From NCBI RefSeq assembly GCF_900149695.1, contig NZ_LT703003.1, positions 2,196,773 through 2,236,919 of the forward strand: a stretch of DNA of 40,147 nt, in the 5' to 3' direction. A program made the position numbers and the translations under genes. The stretch is from Anderseniella sp. Alg231-50. GTDB lineage: Bacteria > Pseudomonadota > Alphaproteobacteria > Rhizobiales > Aestuariivirgaceae. Position 1 is the first letter of the stretch, and the number at the start of each line of letters is the position of its first letter. The notes beneath the pieces were generated by a model, which was given only the letters and a program-made list of their open reading frames with translations, was not told where the DNA came from and did not search any database. Of this stretch, positions 3,947-9,847 are shown piece after piece.

Positions 3947-5545
3947 ATGATTGGAAACACCCCGGCACCGCTTGCCAGGCTGAAGTTTAGTCGGTTGCCA
4001 GCTCATGGTTATCAGTCCATATTGAAAGACATTGCAGCGAAAGGACGGAACATCGCAACAGTTAAGATTGCCCGCGAAGACCGTCTTTTCCGCCGGTTTC
4101 CCAATCCGAGTTGGGCATGGCCGTCGGGACCAACGGATCAGTTGATCTGTGCAGCGGTTTGTCCTGATCGGGATCGTGCGCTTGCTACATTTAGACAATG
4201 GATCTGCAATCAGAAAATTGAAGAGACGGAATTCCGCGAACAGCGCCTTCTAGCAGCCGTTGCTCATCGCTTTGGAAGGGAGCTGGCAGATCTTCCCCAG
4301 TATGACGACCTTGTGAAGTTGCAACGGCAGTTGTGGACGACGTCAAGCATGTCAGTTGCAACGGCAACACCAGTTCTGCGCAGGCTTGAGGGGGCGGGCA
4401 TTGTCCCGATGCTTATCAAAGGTGGTGCCCGGATTGCGTTGCGTCCCGACGAGCAGCTTGCCAGAGTGTCTTATGACCTGGATATCGTCGTTAAATCTGG
4501 CGACTTCGCAGAGGCGATTGAGTTGCTTTTTGAGGAAGGTTGGAGCTACGTCCGGGGTGAGTCCCGACTCCGTATCGCGCCACGAATACGTAACATTCGG
4601 TCCCTGAATTTTTTCAAAGGGCTGTTTGGAGATATCGACCTGCACCAATGGGCATTTAGAAGTGCAGCACCGGATTTGGAGTTGGAAGACGACCTTTGGA
4701 AGAAGTCACAAAAAGCAGATTTTTTCGGGGTTACGGTTTTGGTACCATGTCCATCGGACCGGATTGCCCTGGCGATCGGTCATAGCGGTCGAGAATCACA
4801 TGATCACAGCGATTGGTTGGTCGATTGCGCTCGGTTTCTGATGGAAAACAACATGGATTGGGACAGGCTAGCCAAAACGCTGGATCGTACTGGATCAGCG
4901 GTTCCGGCGCAGTGTGCCTTCAGCTATCTGGAAAGACATCTCGGGTGTTCCATACCTTCGGATTTTATGGCGCAGTTATTTGACAACCGGGGGTCAAGTT
5001 ACCTTTCGCGTGTTTCTTCAGTGCTGCGAGCAAAGCCGCGGACGGACTGGAATCTGGTGTCAATGGCTGGGCGTGGAGTTGCCCTGGCAATCGACAGGAG
5101 GCGCGAGAAAAAGGCCGCTGGGACCGGGCCTACGATAGTTGGGCGAGTCACTACGCACGCCATAAAGGACGGCGTTTCTCACACACCTGCGGAAGAGAAA
5201 GTTCAGCTTTTCAAAATTGACGATCAGCGAAATCATCATTGCCAGTTCAAGCTTGAGGTGGAGATTGACCGTCCCGGCACTACCCGATCCATCGAGTTTG
5301 AATTGAATACGGATACCCGGCACTTGGTGGGGCTTCGAGCGCGAACCTTTTGGCGCCGATCGGGGGTTGTGATTTTGCGATTTAGCGGATCACTGGATCT
5401 GCTGGTCGAAGACCAAAGTATCTGGTTGGAGGCCCGCCCAAGTCGTCACCTCAGGGGGAACGAAACGCAAGAATTTGCTGATCGATACAAGCCGCTTGCG
5501 GTCAGGGCACATTTTTTCAGGATTGAACCGCCATTGGATGGTTGA
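3947..5545 (+). CDS. Nucleotidyltransferase family protein (PF14907-like)
   Basis: The protein has about 532 residues. The central part shows the pattern of the putative nucleotidyltransferase family: MLIKGGARIALRP, then VSYDLDIVV with the paired metal-binding Asp residues (DLD), and later FGDIDLHQWAF. Related proteins accompany HPr-kinase-like and PqqD-like genes in lasso-peptide tailoring clusters and in polysaccharide loci. There, a nucleotidyltransferase is thought to modify a phosphorylated product. The C-terminal 150 residues are not recognised. I chose the ATG at 3947 because the longer upstream reading overlaps the GT90 gene with no support; the ribosome-binding site is weak. Function is inferred from family and context only. 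Confidence 0.7.
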   Translation: MIGNTPAPLARLKFSRLPAHGYQSILKDIAAKGRNIATVKIAREDRLFRRFPNPSWAWPSGPTDQLICAAVCPDRDRALATFRQWICNQKIEETEFREQRLLAAVAHRFGRELADLPQYDDLVKLQRQLWTTSSMSVATATPVLRRLEGAGIVPMLIKGGARIALRPDEQLARVSYDLDIVVKSGDFAEAIELLFEEGWSYVRGESRLRIAPRIRNIRSLNFFKGLFGDIDLHQWAFRSAAPDLELEDDLWKKSQKADFFGVTVLVPCPSDRIALAIGHSGRESHDHSDWLVDCARFLMENNMDWDRLAKTLDRTGSAVPAQCAFSYLERHLGCSIPSDFMAQLFDNRGSSYLSRVSSVLRAKPRTDWNLVSMAGRGVALAIDRRREKKAAGTGPTIVGRVTTHAIKDGVSHTPAEEKVQLFKIDDQRNHHCQFKLEVEIDRPGTTRSIEFELNTDTRHLVGLRARTFWRRSGVVILRFSGSLDLLVEDQSIWLEARPSRHLRGNETQEFADRYKPLAVRAHFFRIEPPLDG

Positions 5546-5656: not shown

Positions 5657-6040
5657 ATGTATACGCTTAAAGGGGACCAATCAGCTTGCCGTTTTATCGA
5701 TCGAGAAGCGGTGATGATTAACGCTGAAACTTCAGCCTATTACAGCTTGAATCAAACAGGTTCTTTCGTCTTGCGCGAGCTGATCGTTTCCAGTCGTAGC
5801 CCGGTCGAAATATCAAGCACGATGGAGAGTCATTTTGGTAAGAATTCCGGGGAATTGGAGGGCGACATCCAAGACGCCATCGCAGTGCTGGAAGCCGAAG
5901 GCCTTATCCTGAAAGCTGGAGACAACGCAGAAGCGAAGTTCATTGACGGTGGCGATGACGTCGATTTGCCCGAAATATACGAGAAGCCCATTTTGGAACG
6001 CCACGGGGAACTCGAGCAGCTAATTCTTAGCGGTGAGTGA
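5657..6040 (+). CDS. PqqD-like protein (RRE fold) with lasso-leader-like C-terminal tail
   Basis: The 127-residue protein starts at an ATG preceded by AGGTAGGAAG. Residues about 1-90 match the PqqD/RiPP recognition element pattern: a strand region, NAETSAYYSLNQTGSFVLREL, a short helix around SPVEISSTM, and AIAVLEAEGLI. Such domains bind leader peptides of ribosomal peptides. The last 20 residues are unusual: Tyr108, Pro111, Leu113, Gly117 and Leu122 reproduce the spacing of the lasso-peptide leader motif YxxPxLxxxGxxxxL. No core peptide follows; the protein ends five residues later. It overlaps the peptidase gene by eight bases, so the two are co-translated. The tail may be a fused substrate leader, a self-binding regulator or a chance match. 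Confidence 0.8.
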   Translation: MYTLKGDQSACRFIDREAVMINAETSAYYSLNQTGSFVLRELIVSSRSPVEISSTMESHFGKNSGELEGDIQDAIAVLEAEGLILKAGDNAEAKFIDGGDDVDLPEIYEKPILERHGELEQLILSGE

Positions 6041-6515
6041 ATCCGGCAAAATGAACTCAGCGCAGGTGAAACTAGTCGGAAAAGAGCTTCAACTCGAGCT
6101 GTCATCCGAACAGCATGCTCTGTATTTTCATGGATTGAGTATGCTGCCTTTTCTACGGGAAGGGGATTTGGTCATCGTAAGGCCTGTGTCCTGGGAAGAC
6201 ATCAAGTGCGGGGACATTGTAACGTATCGAAGCGAGGACAAGTTTCCAACCCGGCGTGTTTTGTTTAAAGGCGCCGCTGGGCTGAGTGTTCGCTGCGACG
6301 GTTGGCCAGAGTACGTCGACGATGTTCAAGCCGATGACGTTCTTGGCCGAGCCGAGGCCAGGTGCCGCGATGGATCTTGGATTACGTCGTCAAGCCTGGA
6401 GTGGCGGCTTGTGGCACTGCGGGCCACGGGTCGAGCAGTGGTCCGCGAGACGCTTTCGGCACTGGGGAAAATACCAAGAACCCTAAGGCGCGCCAAAAGG
6501 CGTTCTTTGATGTGA
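6033..6515 (+). CDS. S24/S26-type (signal-peptidase-like) protein
   Basis: The protein has about 160 residues. The motif HGLSMLPFLREGDLVIV places a likely nucleophile at Ser36, as in LexA/signal-peptidase folds, and CGDIVTYRS is the typical following strand. The segment where S26 enzymes carry the general base (a Lys in bacterial enzymes, a His in many archaeal and ER ones) reads TRRVL here, so Arg74 stands in for it. The protein may therefore be inactive or use another base. No N-terminal membrane anchor is visible. The GTG start overlaps the end of the PqqD-like gene; an ATG at 6051 is an alternative. It lies in one operon with the PqqD-like and kinase-like genes. Confidence 0.7.
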   Translation: MSESGKMNSAQVKLVGKELQLELSSEQHALYFHGLSMLPFLREGDLVIVRPVSWEDIKCGDIVTYRSEDKFPTRRVLFKGAAGLSVRCDGWPEYVDDVQADDVLGRAEARCRDGSWITSSSLEWRLVALRATGRAVVRETLSALGKIPRTLRRAKRRSLM

Positions 6516-7477
6516 CGGATTTTATTGACACAGATTCCGAGCGCCAATTTGGAGCGCTGCGTCTCGGGAATCTCTGCATCCATATAAGCGCCCCAAGCCG
6601 CATGTATCTGGAAGATTTTGCTGCAATCTATGCTGCTGCGTTGCACGATTTAGATAAGATCCCTCCCGCCGAACTCTATCTTGATATTGTTGAGAATCCC
6701 GGAAAACCAGATGTCGAAATTCCGGAGGACGGATTGGTGATTGTCCCACCGGGTGAGTTGTACACCGAGGCAATGTTCACCCGAACGACCTTTGGCAATG
6801 GGGCGCCGCGTGTTCGATTGACGGTCATGGACACGAGCTTGCGAATGGACCGGAGACATATGTACCTTGTTGTATTGCTGAACAAGATACTCTTTCAGAT
6901 GGGGTATATCAGGCTGCATTCCTCGGCGGTATCTTTGGACGGAAAGGCCAATGCATTCATCGGGGACCGTGGTGCAGGGAAAAGCACAACATGTGCATAC
7001 CTGGCCAAGCGTGGCGGTCTTATCCTCGCGGACGACGATGTCATGATGCGCTTTGATGGCAAATCTGTCTTGGTCAGCGGTTGCGACGAACGGATGCGGA
7101 TTATGCCTGATACCGAAGCATACCTGTTTGGTAAATTGGACGTCCGGCCGCAGGAGTTTGGCGGCTTTCTGAAGAAAGAGATCAGAACAGCCACTCAATT
7201 TTCCACTGATCCATACGTCGATCATGGCCTTCATAGGATCTTTTTCCCAAAAGTGGGTGAGAACTTTCTGATCAAGAGGTTGCCGCCAAGCCAGTTGGTC
7301 ATGCGGTTGATGAGCATCCTTGTCCCGGCCAATCGTTTCGCGGGACACAGCGACCATTCGAAGACACTGCAGATGCTTACAGATATCGCTGACCGGGTTT
7401 CGGTGTTTGAACTGACACTCAGCCGCGATTTCAAGGGTCTCGATGATCTCTTTGATTTTCTCAGATCAGATGAATAG
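6512..7477 (+). CDS. HPr-kinase/phosphorylase-related protein
   Basis: The 321-residue protein starts at a GTG that overlaps the peptidase stop (GTGA), with an AAAAGG ribosome-binding site 11 bases upstream. This start fits better than a longer in-frame one inside the previous gene. The HprK pattern is clear: RLHSSAVSLDGKANAFIGDR, a Walker A loop GDRGAGKST (about residues 151-159), then LILADDDVMM. HprK proper phosphorylates HPr in sugar regulation. Related short kinases occur with PqqD-like proteins and nucleotidyltransferases, and in lasso-peptide clusters they phosphorylate the peptide. Here it closes the nucleotidyltransferase, PqqD and peptidase block. Its target is unknown. Confidence 0.8.
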   Translation: MTDFIDTDSERQFGALRLGNLCIHISAPSRMYLEDFAAIYAAALHDLDKIPPAELYLDIVENPGKPDVEIPEDGLVIVPPGELYTEAMFTRTTFGNGAPRVRLTVMDTSLRMDRRHMYLVVLLNKILFQMGYIRLHSSAVSLDGKANAFIGDRGAGKSTTCAYLAKRGGLILADDDVMMRFDGKSVLVSGCDERMRIMPDTEAYLFGKLDVRPQEFGGFLKKEIRTATQFSTDPYVDHGLHRIFFPKVGENFLIKRLPPSQLVMRLMSILVPANRFAGHSDHSKTLQMLTDIADRVSVFELTLSRDFKGLDDLFDFLRSDE

Positions 7478-7573: not shown

Positions 7574-9847
7574 ATGAACTCTACGAAAGTATTCTACGTT
7601 ATCAGCGATGCAATTCGGATCTCTGGCGGAGCCGAAAAGACCGCCTCGCTGTTGTTGCGACGATTGCGGGAACATTATGAGTTCGAGTGCGAAATGCTCT
7701 CCCGCCACCCAATCCCGCACGACGAGGTTCGCGATGGGACTCGCCTGCGCGGATTTCGTGACCTGGAAGAGTTGACCGAGATTACCCGGGCGGAAAAACC
7801 GGATATCATCATCGGCTCGCTGCACGATGCCGTGATGGCTTTCAAAGTCGGCGCCCGTTTTGGAGTTCCATGTATCCTGTCCATTCACGGCTATGAATAT
7901 ACGCCGCCAAATGAACAGGAGCGGTGTGCCTGGGCAATTCACCCGGGCTTTCGCCCTCTGCCACAGGCCGACATCGACTTTGTTCTTGAGACTGCGGATC
8001 ATGTTTTCACCTGTTCTGAATTCATGCAGCAGTTTCTGCACAACAGATCACAGGTGCAAAGTGACGTATTGCCAAACGCATGGGACGACCAGGAAGCCCT
8101 GATTCAAGAATCATCTGACCGCGACGGTCGGTTTATTACTGCCGTATGTGCCAGCCCCCACAAGGGAATCGAGATTTTTCTGGAGCTCGCACGTCGATTT
8201 CCGAACGAAGAGTTCATGCTGGCTGGCGCACCGGGAAACGAGTTTCCTCCTAAGATCATCGAAGATGCCGTGGCCTGCCAGAACGTTAAATTGCCGGGGC
8301 ACATGCGGCCGCGCGACTTCCTTGCGAGCAGCAAGCTCGTGCTCGTCCCATCTCAATGGCCGGAACCGTTTGGGCGCATAGCGGTCGAGGCGATGGCAAA
8401 CAGAATTCCAATTCTGGCAAGTCGAACAGGTGGCCTGTGCAAAATTATCGGTGACGGTCCCTCGGGGGTGGACGAATTCACAAGCATTGAAGTTTGGGAG
8501 CAAAGACTGCGCGACCAGCTGGACGGACAGACAATTGGTTCGAAACAGTTGGATTCAGCGGAATTGCGTGCCCGTGCCTTTCTGAAGGCTGAGCCAGCGC
8601 ACGTGGTTGCCAAGACAATAGAAACTCTGTGCGCGAAGTCAAAGCCGGCGCGTGACAAGAAAACCGTCGTTTTTGTTGGCGGGATTGACGGCAAAGAATC
8701 CAACACAATCGTCAATGGGGCCTGGGCGCGGGAACTAAATTCCCGCGGATACACCACAGATGCGAGCCTGGACACCGATCTGCCGGCCGACCACGTGATT
8801 TTGCATGACTATTCGAAAGATTTTGAAACCTTCGTGCCACCAGAAACCGGCCATTATATTGCCGTTCGAACTTCGGATTTTGGGCCGTACCCTCAGAACT
8901 GGGCAAGCAAGATCGAAGAAGAGTTTGATCAACTTTGGGTCTATACAGATTGGATAGCACAACAGGCGCAGGCAAGTGGCATAGATCCCGACCTCATTCG
9001 GGTCATTCCGCTTGGCGTTGATCCCGAGGCGTTTCGACCGGATGGCGCCAAGTCCCCCTACGTTCCACCCGATGACTTTACGTTTCTTTTCGTTGGGGGA
9101 GCCGTCCTGCGTAAGGGAATTGACACACTGATCAAGGCGTACCAGTCGACATTTTCGGGGTCTGACAAAGTATCCCTTGTGATAAAGGGAAATTCGCAAA
9201 ACCTCCACTATCAGGGCTTCAACGAAGTTGAAGAGATCTTGGGAGACAGCGACGTCAACGACCCACCAAACATTGTCCACATTGACGATCATCTTGATCG
9301 CGAGGACCTGGCGGCGATTTTCCGCAGTTGCGATGTCGGAGTGTTCCCGTATCGGGCAGAGGGTTTTGCCCTGCCGATTGCAGAGGCCATGGCGAGCGGA
9401 ACGCCGGCCATTGTTCCTAATTTCGGCGCTTGCTTGGATTTTTGTTCGCCTGAGACGTCTTTTTTCGTACCGGCGCGTCGAATAAAACTGCCATATGCGC
9501 GGACTTTCAGACTGGCCGCGGGTTTTGTGATGGAAGTGCAATCAGTCGATTTTTGCGAAATTGGGGTGAAAGATCTGGCGGCCAAAATGCGCGAAGTGTA
9601 CGACGCAGGCCGACCGGCGCTGGAAGAAAAGCGAGCCGCTGGGTTCAAGTTGGTGAAGGACCGCCTGCACTGGGCCAATTCCGTCGACCACATGGAGAAA
9701 TACATGCAAGAACTCAAAGGCACCGTGCCCCGTCGCCTGGTTGCCAAGCGCGATGCAATGGCGAGCAAGTACAAACGCGAGACTGCGTTGCGCGACCTGG
9801 TAACCAGTGCCGCGGTCACGCGCCTGCACAAGGACGAGACAATCTGA
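7574..9847 (+). CDS. Two-domain glycosyltransferase (GT4-GT4 fusion)
   Basis: The protein has about 757 residues with two consecutive GT-B glycosyltransferase units. The first runs from FYVISDAIRISGGAEKTA to the donor-site segment WPEPFGRIAVEAMANRIPIL. The second begins near TVVFVGGIDG and includes VIPLGVDPEAFRPDG, FLFVGGAVLRKGIDTLI and the donor-site motif FPYRAEGFALPIAEAMASGT. Both have the E-x7-E type signature of GT4 enzymes. The ATG at 7574 is preferred; an in-frame start upstream at 7508 adds an unlikely extension. No membrane span is seen. Such fusions usually add two sugars in succession to a repeat unit. It follows the kinase-like gene by about 95 bp. Confidence 0.85.
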   Translation: MNSTKVFYVISDAIRISGGAEKTASLLLRRLREHYEFECEMLSRHPIPHDEVRDGTRLRGFRDLEELTEITRAEKPDIIIGSLHDAVMAFKVGARFGVPCILSIHGYEYTPPNEQERCAWAIHPGFRPLPQADIDFVLETADHVFTCSEFMQQFLHNRSQVQSDVLPNAWDDQEALIQESSDRDGRFITAVCASPHKGIEIFLELARRFPNEEFMLAGAPGNEFPPKIIEDAVACQNVKLPGHMRPRDFLASSKLVLVPSQWPEPFGRIAVEAMANRIPILASRTGGLCKIIGDGPSGVDEFTSIEVWEQRLRDQLDGQTIGSKQLDSAELRARAFLKAEPAHVVAKTIETLCAKSKPARDKKTVVFVGGIDGKESNTIVNGAWARELNSRGYTTDASLDTDLPADHVILHDYSKDFETFVPPETGHYIAVRTSDFGPYPQNWASKIEEEFDQLWVYTDWIAQQAQASGIDPDLIRVIPLGVDPEAFRPDGAKSPYVPPDDFTFLFVGGAVLRKGIDTLIKAYQSTFSGSDKVSLVIKGNSQNLHYQGFNEVEEILGDSDVNDPPNIVHIDDHLDREDLAAIFRSCDVGVFPYRAEGFALPIAEAMASGTPAIVPNFGACLDFCSPETSFFVPARRIKLPYARTFRLAAGFVMEVQSVDFCEIGVKDLAAKMREVYDAGRPALEEKRAAGFKLVKDRLHWANSVDHMEKYMQELKGTVPRRLVAKRDAMASKYKRETALRDLVTSAAVTRLHKDETI

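Follow-up and report, generated by a model that had tools for sequence, protein, structure and literature searches.

A PqqD-like protein with a leader-type tail that probably docks on its own RRE domain

We found that a PqqD-like protein of Anderseniella sp. Alg231-50 carries a leader-type motif and the domain that would bind it on one chain, as a first-pass annotation of this DNA had claimed; the arrangement is conserved well past close relatives and the motif co-varies with the leader-binding pocket. Computation gives good support to the view that the tail is a tethered leader which docks on its own RRE. The groove contacts, the docking in cis, the kinase as partner and the identity of what is modified are what we infer. 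We consider it probable that the self-docked tail serves as a docking/presentation unit for an HprK-like kinase. The window referred to below is the whole stretch of DNA that was analysed, 40,147 nucleotides long, and its features are collected in Table 1.

Table 1. Parts of the RRE protein and neighbouring genes, in window coordinates
Feature	Position	Strand	Basis
NTP_transf_5 nucleotidyltransferase gene	3947..5545 (start codon our choice)	+	PF14907, 67 bits, E 2.1e-18
PqqD/RRE domain, residues 15-85	5699..5911	+	PF05402, residues 17-84; Foldseek best match 5v1u
Linker, residues 86-107	5912..5977	+	Mean pLDDT 64 for residues 91-100; A/P/G/S-rich
Leader-like motif YEKPILERHGELEQLI, residues 108-123	5978..6025	+	pLDDT, DSSP, lasso_leader_L3, family conservation
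LSGE and stop, at the place of LLDPIHEVDExGWP in relatives	6026..6040	+	Sequence and alignments
SpI-like (archaeal-type signal peptidase) gene	6051..6515; alternative start GTG at 6033	+	TIGR02228, 36.3 bits, E 4.7e-9, under the cut-off of 51.85
HprK-like kinase gene	6512..7477 (start codon our choice)	+	TIGR04352, 24 bits; PF07475, 20.6 bits; both below cut-off
Glycosyltransferase gene, two GT4-type stretches	7574..9847	+	PF00534 and PF13692, two stretches each

The open reading frame at 5657-6040 on the forward strand encodes 127 residues, and its translation has Tyr108, Pro111, Leu113, Gly117 and Leu122 at the positions given by the annotation. The tail reads YEKPILERHGELEQLILSGE and fits the lasso/LPP leader pattern [Y/W]xxPx[L/V]. 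The protein matches PF05402 (PqqD) with 41 bits, the cut-off being 23.4, and the Foldseek match to TbiB1 adds the RRE fold. It is divergent, with at most 31% identity to 78 relatives. Its N32 and D70 correspond to LppB N33 and D70 when mapped by hand from the alignment; both columns vary across the family, with Asn at the N33 column in just 6 of 79 proteins. Ala74 stands where most relatives carry Phe or Leu.

When residues 86-127 were shuffled 200,000 times, the strict pattern Y..P.L...G....L arose in 6 cases, and it was absent from the last 30 residues of all 808 non-PqqD ORFs from the collected loci, so we reject chance as the source of the motif. A relaxed form, [YWF]..P.[LIVFM]x8[LIVM], was found in 2 of the 808 ORFs and 796 of the 200,000 shuffles. 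The NCBIfam model lasso_leader_L3 aligns to residues 108-120 with 13 bits (E 0.082) under a cut-off of 19, a match that is suggestive only.

To look at conservation, we scanned a collection of 84,980 species with two patterns derived from the tail, which returned 235 relatives, the best 80 of which were kept. All of these 80 carry a related tail, typically FxxPxLxKYTDMQDLLLLDPIHEVDExGWP. Their record titles name Acidobacteria, Chloroflexi, Cyanobacteria, Planctomycetota/Phycisphaerae and Gemmatimonadetes, and further Nitrospirae, Verrucomicrobia, Ignavibacteria, several proteobacterial groups and others. Since the scan patterns derive from the tail, conservation inside them is partly circular; columns 108, 111 and 113 and the terminal Gly-Trp-Pro lie outside the patterns and are free of this selection. 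Among 78 relatives from the best 80 of 235, position 108 is aromatic in 75, Pro111 is kept in 74, and positions 113 and 122 are hydrophobic in 77 and 78, respectively. The aromatic/Pro/hydrophobic spacing is kept in 71 of 78 relatives, beyond close kin. The exact residues of the annotated motif fare less evenly: Tyr108 itself is present in 10 of the 78 and Gly117 in one, so that the aromatic, Pro and hydrophobic positions stand as a family motif and the Gly does not.

Gly-Trp-Pro is found close to the C-terminus in nearly every one of the 79 alignment rows (G 79, W 77, P 78), the window's own Gly126 being forced into the G column by the alignment. These alignments leave out L048:162-464 (no tail), L063 (a fusion) and L099 (same C-terminus and length as L095), and a second tail-RRE copy in genome G241 was left out of the tail readings. 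We kept L011 and L012, which share genomes with L036 and L103, as well as L078 and L087 (91% identical) and L091 and L105 (seemingly near-same). All 79 proteins match PF05402 (E up to 0.01), and the Pfam and NCBIfam families that match more than 4 members are PqqD-type models (for NCBIfam, among the matches listed, 25 of 32). The linker spans 17-30 residues in the 79 aligned proteins and is rich in A, P, G and S.

Searches that start from proteins give a narrower view. The window protein as a single query found no relatives in viral contigs, genome contigs or plasmids, and matches in 3 of 60 genomes, the source genome included; one of these hits, L004, was dropped as a relative because it resembles an unrelated peptidase. 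A profile of four tail-bearing proteins matched 64 of 385 Alphaproteobacteria genomes, mostly by the PqqD domain only as judged by match end, and tails were read in proteins of 8 genomes besides the source genome. These protein and profile searches yielded 17 tail-bearing relatives independent of the scan patterns, picked since the match reached the tail and hence not blind. Twelve of them have aromatic-xx-Pro, one (L011) has LxxP and four (L148, L151, L152, L153) have neither. Homologues without the pattern had been named as what would speak against the annotation; the result is mainly in its favour, but for these 5 of 17.

All 17 keep a D[M/L/I]xxxI/L-type segment (read by eye), and as aromatic-xxP is kept in 12, it is the latter half of the tail that varies less; selection may therefore act mainly on something other than docking. 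L148 and L151-L153 lack YxxP and retain the later segment through DPIHEV..GWP, which suggests from the sequence that this exit segment does something in its own right. The window protein shows the opposite loss, with YxxPxL retained and the exit segment absent, and may be a reduced form of the family tail. L005, L007, L009 and L010 end in DPPLPA or similar, without the HExxx-GWP part. A simple frameshift was rejected as the cause of the loss in the window, as reading by eye found no DPIHEV..GWP remnant in the other frames near the stop. The annotation had stated that no core peptide follows the motif, which is true of the window protein, where only LSGE follows, and fails for nearly all of the 80 relatives, where LDPIHEVDExGWP does. 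Its suggestion of a mere scar of precursor fusion is excluded as a family-wide explanation because the tail family is so conserved. The source genome holds a second PqqD protein (L002), which ends in FEAPNLEVHSDLQELIMLDPVHDADPDHGWP plus six residues; at L002 170-2975 a radical SAM protein (NF033640, 293 bits), a tail-bearing RRE and an HprK-like kinase stand in a row.

We ran AF2 with the 79-row alignments on the window protein and on L078, the protein of Oscillatoria sp. PCC 10802 at L078:4986-5441, with a mean pLDDT of 88 and 82, respectively. In the window protein the tail scores 92 over residues 101-110 and 85 over 111-120, with 64 in the linker at 91-100 and 58 at 121-127. L078 shows a similar profile (90 at 111-120, 80 at 121-130, 57 and 52 in the linker, 55-58 in the exit segment). 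DSSP assigns a strand at 113-118 and a helix at 119-124 in the window model, and a strand at 121-124 in L078; a tail strand in DSSP needs a partner strand, which must therefore lie within the same model. The tail is accordingly predicted to be a strand placed confidently past a floppy linker and packing on the rest of the protein. As for whether the tail is a ligand or part of the fold, which the annotation left to a structural model, its confident placement beyond a linker of 17-30 residues is like that of a tethered ligand; the exact contacts in the groove we infer only.

The nearest solved structures are RRE-leader complexes, namely TbiB1 and TfuB1 with their leaders, and the best Foldseek match of the window protein is the TbiB1-leader complex 5v1u (E 2.9e-5). 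In the LppB-LppA crystal, as described in PMC13381572, leader residues -12 to -7 pair with LppB 27-33. Mapped by hand, these two segments correspond to residues 112-117 and 26-32 of the window protein, in whose model tail strand 113-118 would pair with RRE strand 27-31.

A different line comes from covariation. In the solved complex of LppB with LppA, it is D70 of LppB that holds the tyrosine of the leader (PMC13381572). In 89 family proteins, Asp or Glu is found at column 70 in 18 of 25 proteins with Tyr or Trp at column 108 and in 8 of 64 with other residues there. Column 70 takes the first three places among 278 tests, and the column pair 70-108 ranks 5 of 2436. An earlier test on the 79 alignment rows alone gave 11/17 vs 8/62 (p 5e-5). 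When each Y/W protein was paired with its nearest unused other, giving disjoint pairs, 13 changed in the expected direction, none against it and 12 not at all (p 2.4e-4). The 17 relatives found outside the patterns have D/E in 6 of 8 Y/W proteins vs 1 of 9 others (by eye), but nine of these relatives, and two more through a shared genome, had been counted among the 89, and the six that were new to the test (Y/W 0/1, others 1/5 with D/E) are uninformative.

We also drew from PMC13381572 a contact set, which takes in neighbouring residues and the whole strand-pairing block. Three of the top 5 RRE-leader couplings fall in this set (0.23 expected, p 9e-4) and 5 of the top 20 (0.93 expected, p 0.0017); the strongest coupling, 81-115, lies outside. 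This covariation supports docking within the family as an independent line of sequence evidence, most simply in cis, and would also allow domain swapping.

One alternative is that the tail is a structural edge strand of the subfamily fold, unrelated to leader binding. The confident AF2 placement of the tail would agree with such a strand, as would L148 and L151-L153, which retain the later segment without YxxP. We hold it to be very improbable: the linker varies from 17 to 30 residues, the covariation is enriched at leader-contact positions, and the motif agrees with a known RRE ligand.

The RRE gene and its neighbours are closely packed on a single strand, in the order NTP_transf_5, RRE, SpI-like peptidase, HprK-like kinase and glycosyltransferase. 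The kinase has the Walker A motif GDRGAGKS, DD224-225 and H186 (kinase numbering) in common with its family, in which Walker A is kept in 56 of 58 members. The SpI-like protein reads Arg for the His of the HRV motif in a two-sequence alignment, a reading that also fits the spacing to LppS S29/H68/D93, and tentatively seems to be without the catalytic His. Among 385 Alphaproteobacteria genomes its homologues were found in the source genome only, and TIGR02228 at 1e-6 matches 2 of 299 genomes of the phylum, the other match being a larger signal peptidase-like ORF. Elsewhere in the window, the ORF list gives near-identical peptides (MxCGKDQTVQLHPWDRRTLSAPSGAGGR...) at 26-250 and 2389-2540 (approximate limits), which suggests a partial duplication.

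We next compared the neighbourhoods of the tail-bearing relatives (best 80 of 235) with those of 20 tail-less PqqD loci. An HprK-like kinase is found in 63 of the 80 tail loci, in 60 downstream on the same strand and in 53 with its frame starting within 300 nt. Nucleotidyltransferases are present in 45, family-2 glycosyltransferases in 74 and ABC exporters in 28. The corresponding numbers for the 20 tail-less loci are 15 for HprK, 7 for the NTase, 1 for GT2 and 3 for ABC. The kinase is therefore not specific to the tail, because HprK-like kinases adjoin tail-less RREs as well (15/20). A lasso cyclase was found in none of the 80 tail loci nor in the window's first 16 kb, and in 14 of the 20 tail-less loci; for the B2 leader peptidase the tail loci and the same 16 kb were again empty, with 10 of 20 tail-less loci positive. 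The link to lasso systems drawn by the annotation thus found no support. We built the HprK, NTase, GT and ABC profiles largely from tail loci, and those for cyclase and B2 from tail-less ones; since each profile leans to its own set and the taxonomy differs between the sets, this is a contrast of kinds and not a controlled trial.

The annotation's proposal of a handle for the neighbouring kinase would fit this neighbourhood. As to the tail's job, we would rank kinase docking/presentation first and a fused substrate second.

A separate precursor in the window was rejected, as patterns and ORF reading gave no plausible leader-bearing ORF. Over the whole window, the strict pattern for leaders, [YW]..P.[LIV]...G.{4,6}T, has no hit, and the relaxed pattern has one in the first 16 kb, implausible by eye. 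Across loci, the strict pattern is found in three of the 22 tail-less loci and in one of the 90 tail loci (1/22 and 5/90 after base shuffling) and the relaxed one in 8 of 22 and 12 of 90. Judged by eye, hits are plausible in 6 of the 22 tail-less loci (L124, L126, L128, L131, L136, L137) and in none of the 90 tail loci, a comparison that is weak as statistics. In all 22 tail-less loci the PqqD frame ends 1-9 residues past the match and so has no tail. One of the six, at L137 4747-4917 on the reverse strand (source genome contig C3), is a small ORF, MQQQVSPSAKSYQAPKIVACGSITDLT..., with the strict leader motif beside a tail-less PqqD; in the 10 kb of this locus the profiles give two GT4-type hits and detect neither a lasso cyclase nor B2 nor HprK.

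This small ORF bears on the idea of an autoinhibitory plug, in which the tail would block the groove until it is displaced by a trans-acting precursor that bears a better leader. The docking evidence (AF2 confidence and covariation) would suit a plug, and the source genome does have a leader-bearing small ORF elsewhere. That ORF, however, adjoins its own tail-less RRE, none of the 90 tail loci has a plausible precursor nearby, and the conservation of the exit segment is very high for a mere plug, which makes the idea improbable.

Alternatively the tail may be a fused precursor, leader and core together, whose exit segment (in the window, Ser125) is modified by the kinase, NTase and glycosyltransferases, the RRE protein being the product or glycan carrier. 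The absence of a plausible separate precursor near tail loci, the presence of those enzymes and the almost invariant exit segment of the scanned loci are in line with it. With Tyr108 taken as -16, Ile123 becomes -1 and Ser125 +2, shifted by one residue from Ser3 of LppA, the residue that LppK phosphorylates (PMC13381572). However, no Ser, Thr or Tyr is conserved in the exit segment, and its conservation across phyla is, in our judgement, unlike that of known peptide products. The B2 peptidase was found in none of the 80 tail loci, and phmmer finds no SpI similar to the window's in loci L002-L115. At L063 5001-7397, moreover, the unit sits inside a longer chain of 799 residues, in which three tandem PqqD/RRE units precede an HprK-like kinase and, by eye, the first unit only has a full tail. 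We regard a fused precursor as unlikely.

For the preferred reading, a docking and presentation unit, we propose the following. A leader-type strand on a flexible linker would fold back into the leader-binding groove of its own RRE, a self-occupied groove that would parallel LppA or TbiA leaders in LppB or TbiB1. Across the wider family, the exit segment LDPIHEVDExGWP would then leave the RRE where a core peptide would. The self-loaded RRE would stand in for a separate precursor peptide and most likely act as a fixed docking/presentation unit for the HprK-like kinase, joined in many loci by the NTP transferase. The L063 chain, in which RRE units and an HprK-like kinase are fused, speaks for this reading. 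The window copy would be a reduced version, with the docking strand kept, the exit segment cut to LSGE and an SpI-like peptidase adjoining. It is conceivable, if doubtful, that in a widespread bacterial system RRE and ligand work as one protein in which the tethered leader locks the chain on itself and presents a fixed exit peptide to the kinase, NTP transferase and glycosyltransferases, starting or controlling glycan synthesis.

If true, RiPP-type recognition would be used for glycan synthesis instead of the production of a free peptide, and the family would suggest that RREs and HprK-like kinases have a part in glycan loci. RREs are class-independent markers of peptide natural products, and a family with a built-in ligand could pass for orphan lasso or RiPP clusters. 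The built-in ligand would also be a natural design for cis-loaded RREs. We found no description of a PqqD/RRE protein with its own leader-like tail in titles and abstract openings, subscription papers and preprints being partly reachable. Taken together, these results point to a novel variant of a known peptide-recognition module, in a little-described use that recurs in several phyla.

Lasso B1/leader pairs (TbiB1-TbiA 5v1u/5v1v, TfuB1 6jx3, PbaB1 9x90) share with the tail proteins the RRE fold and the leader motif and give the best structural and profile matches; they differ in that no cyclase, B2 or separate precursor was found with the tail proteins and the ligand is on the same chain. TIGR04353 and TIGR04248 describe PqqD-type proteins of the HPr-rel-A and SynChlorMet systems, which, going by the model names too, have an HprK-like kinase; they match 21 and 60 of 79 family proteins at E up to 0.1, an E threshold and not the model cut-offs. 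Here the match is to the PqqD domain and not to the tail, as shown for L078.

The closest comparison is with LPP systems (LppA/B/K/S/N). PMC13381572 gives their core set as SpI, a discrete RRE, an HprK-like kinase, an NTP transferase and an MsbA-like transporter, states that LPPs are restricted to Bacillota, and reports a link with capsular loci that its authors left open. The window differs in its host, which is outside Bacillota, in its SpI-like protein, and in having the leader motif on the RRE chain: no separate LppA was found, nor, by patterns other than the exact LPP consensus, a separate precursor with a YxxPxVLxHQxIxFET leader. The ABC profile from tail loci found no MsbA-like transporter in the window's first 16 kb. 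We do not claim LPP membership because the motif is borne by the RRE, neither a plausible precursor nor, in the first 16 kb, an MsbA-like gene was found, and Arg seems to replace the catalytic His. The window does share with LPP systems the discrete RRE, the HprK-like kinase and NTP transferase beside it (the kinase models being sub-cut-off), the SpI-like peptidase, the YxxPx[V/L] motif and the glycan-gene surroundings. By analogy, the set in the window may work like a reduced LPP system.
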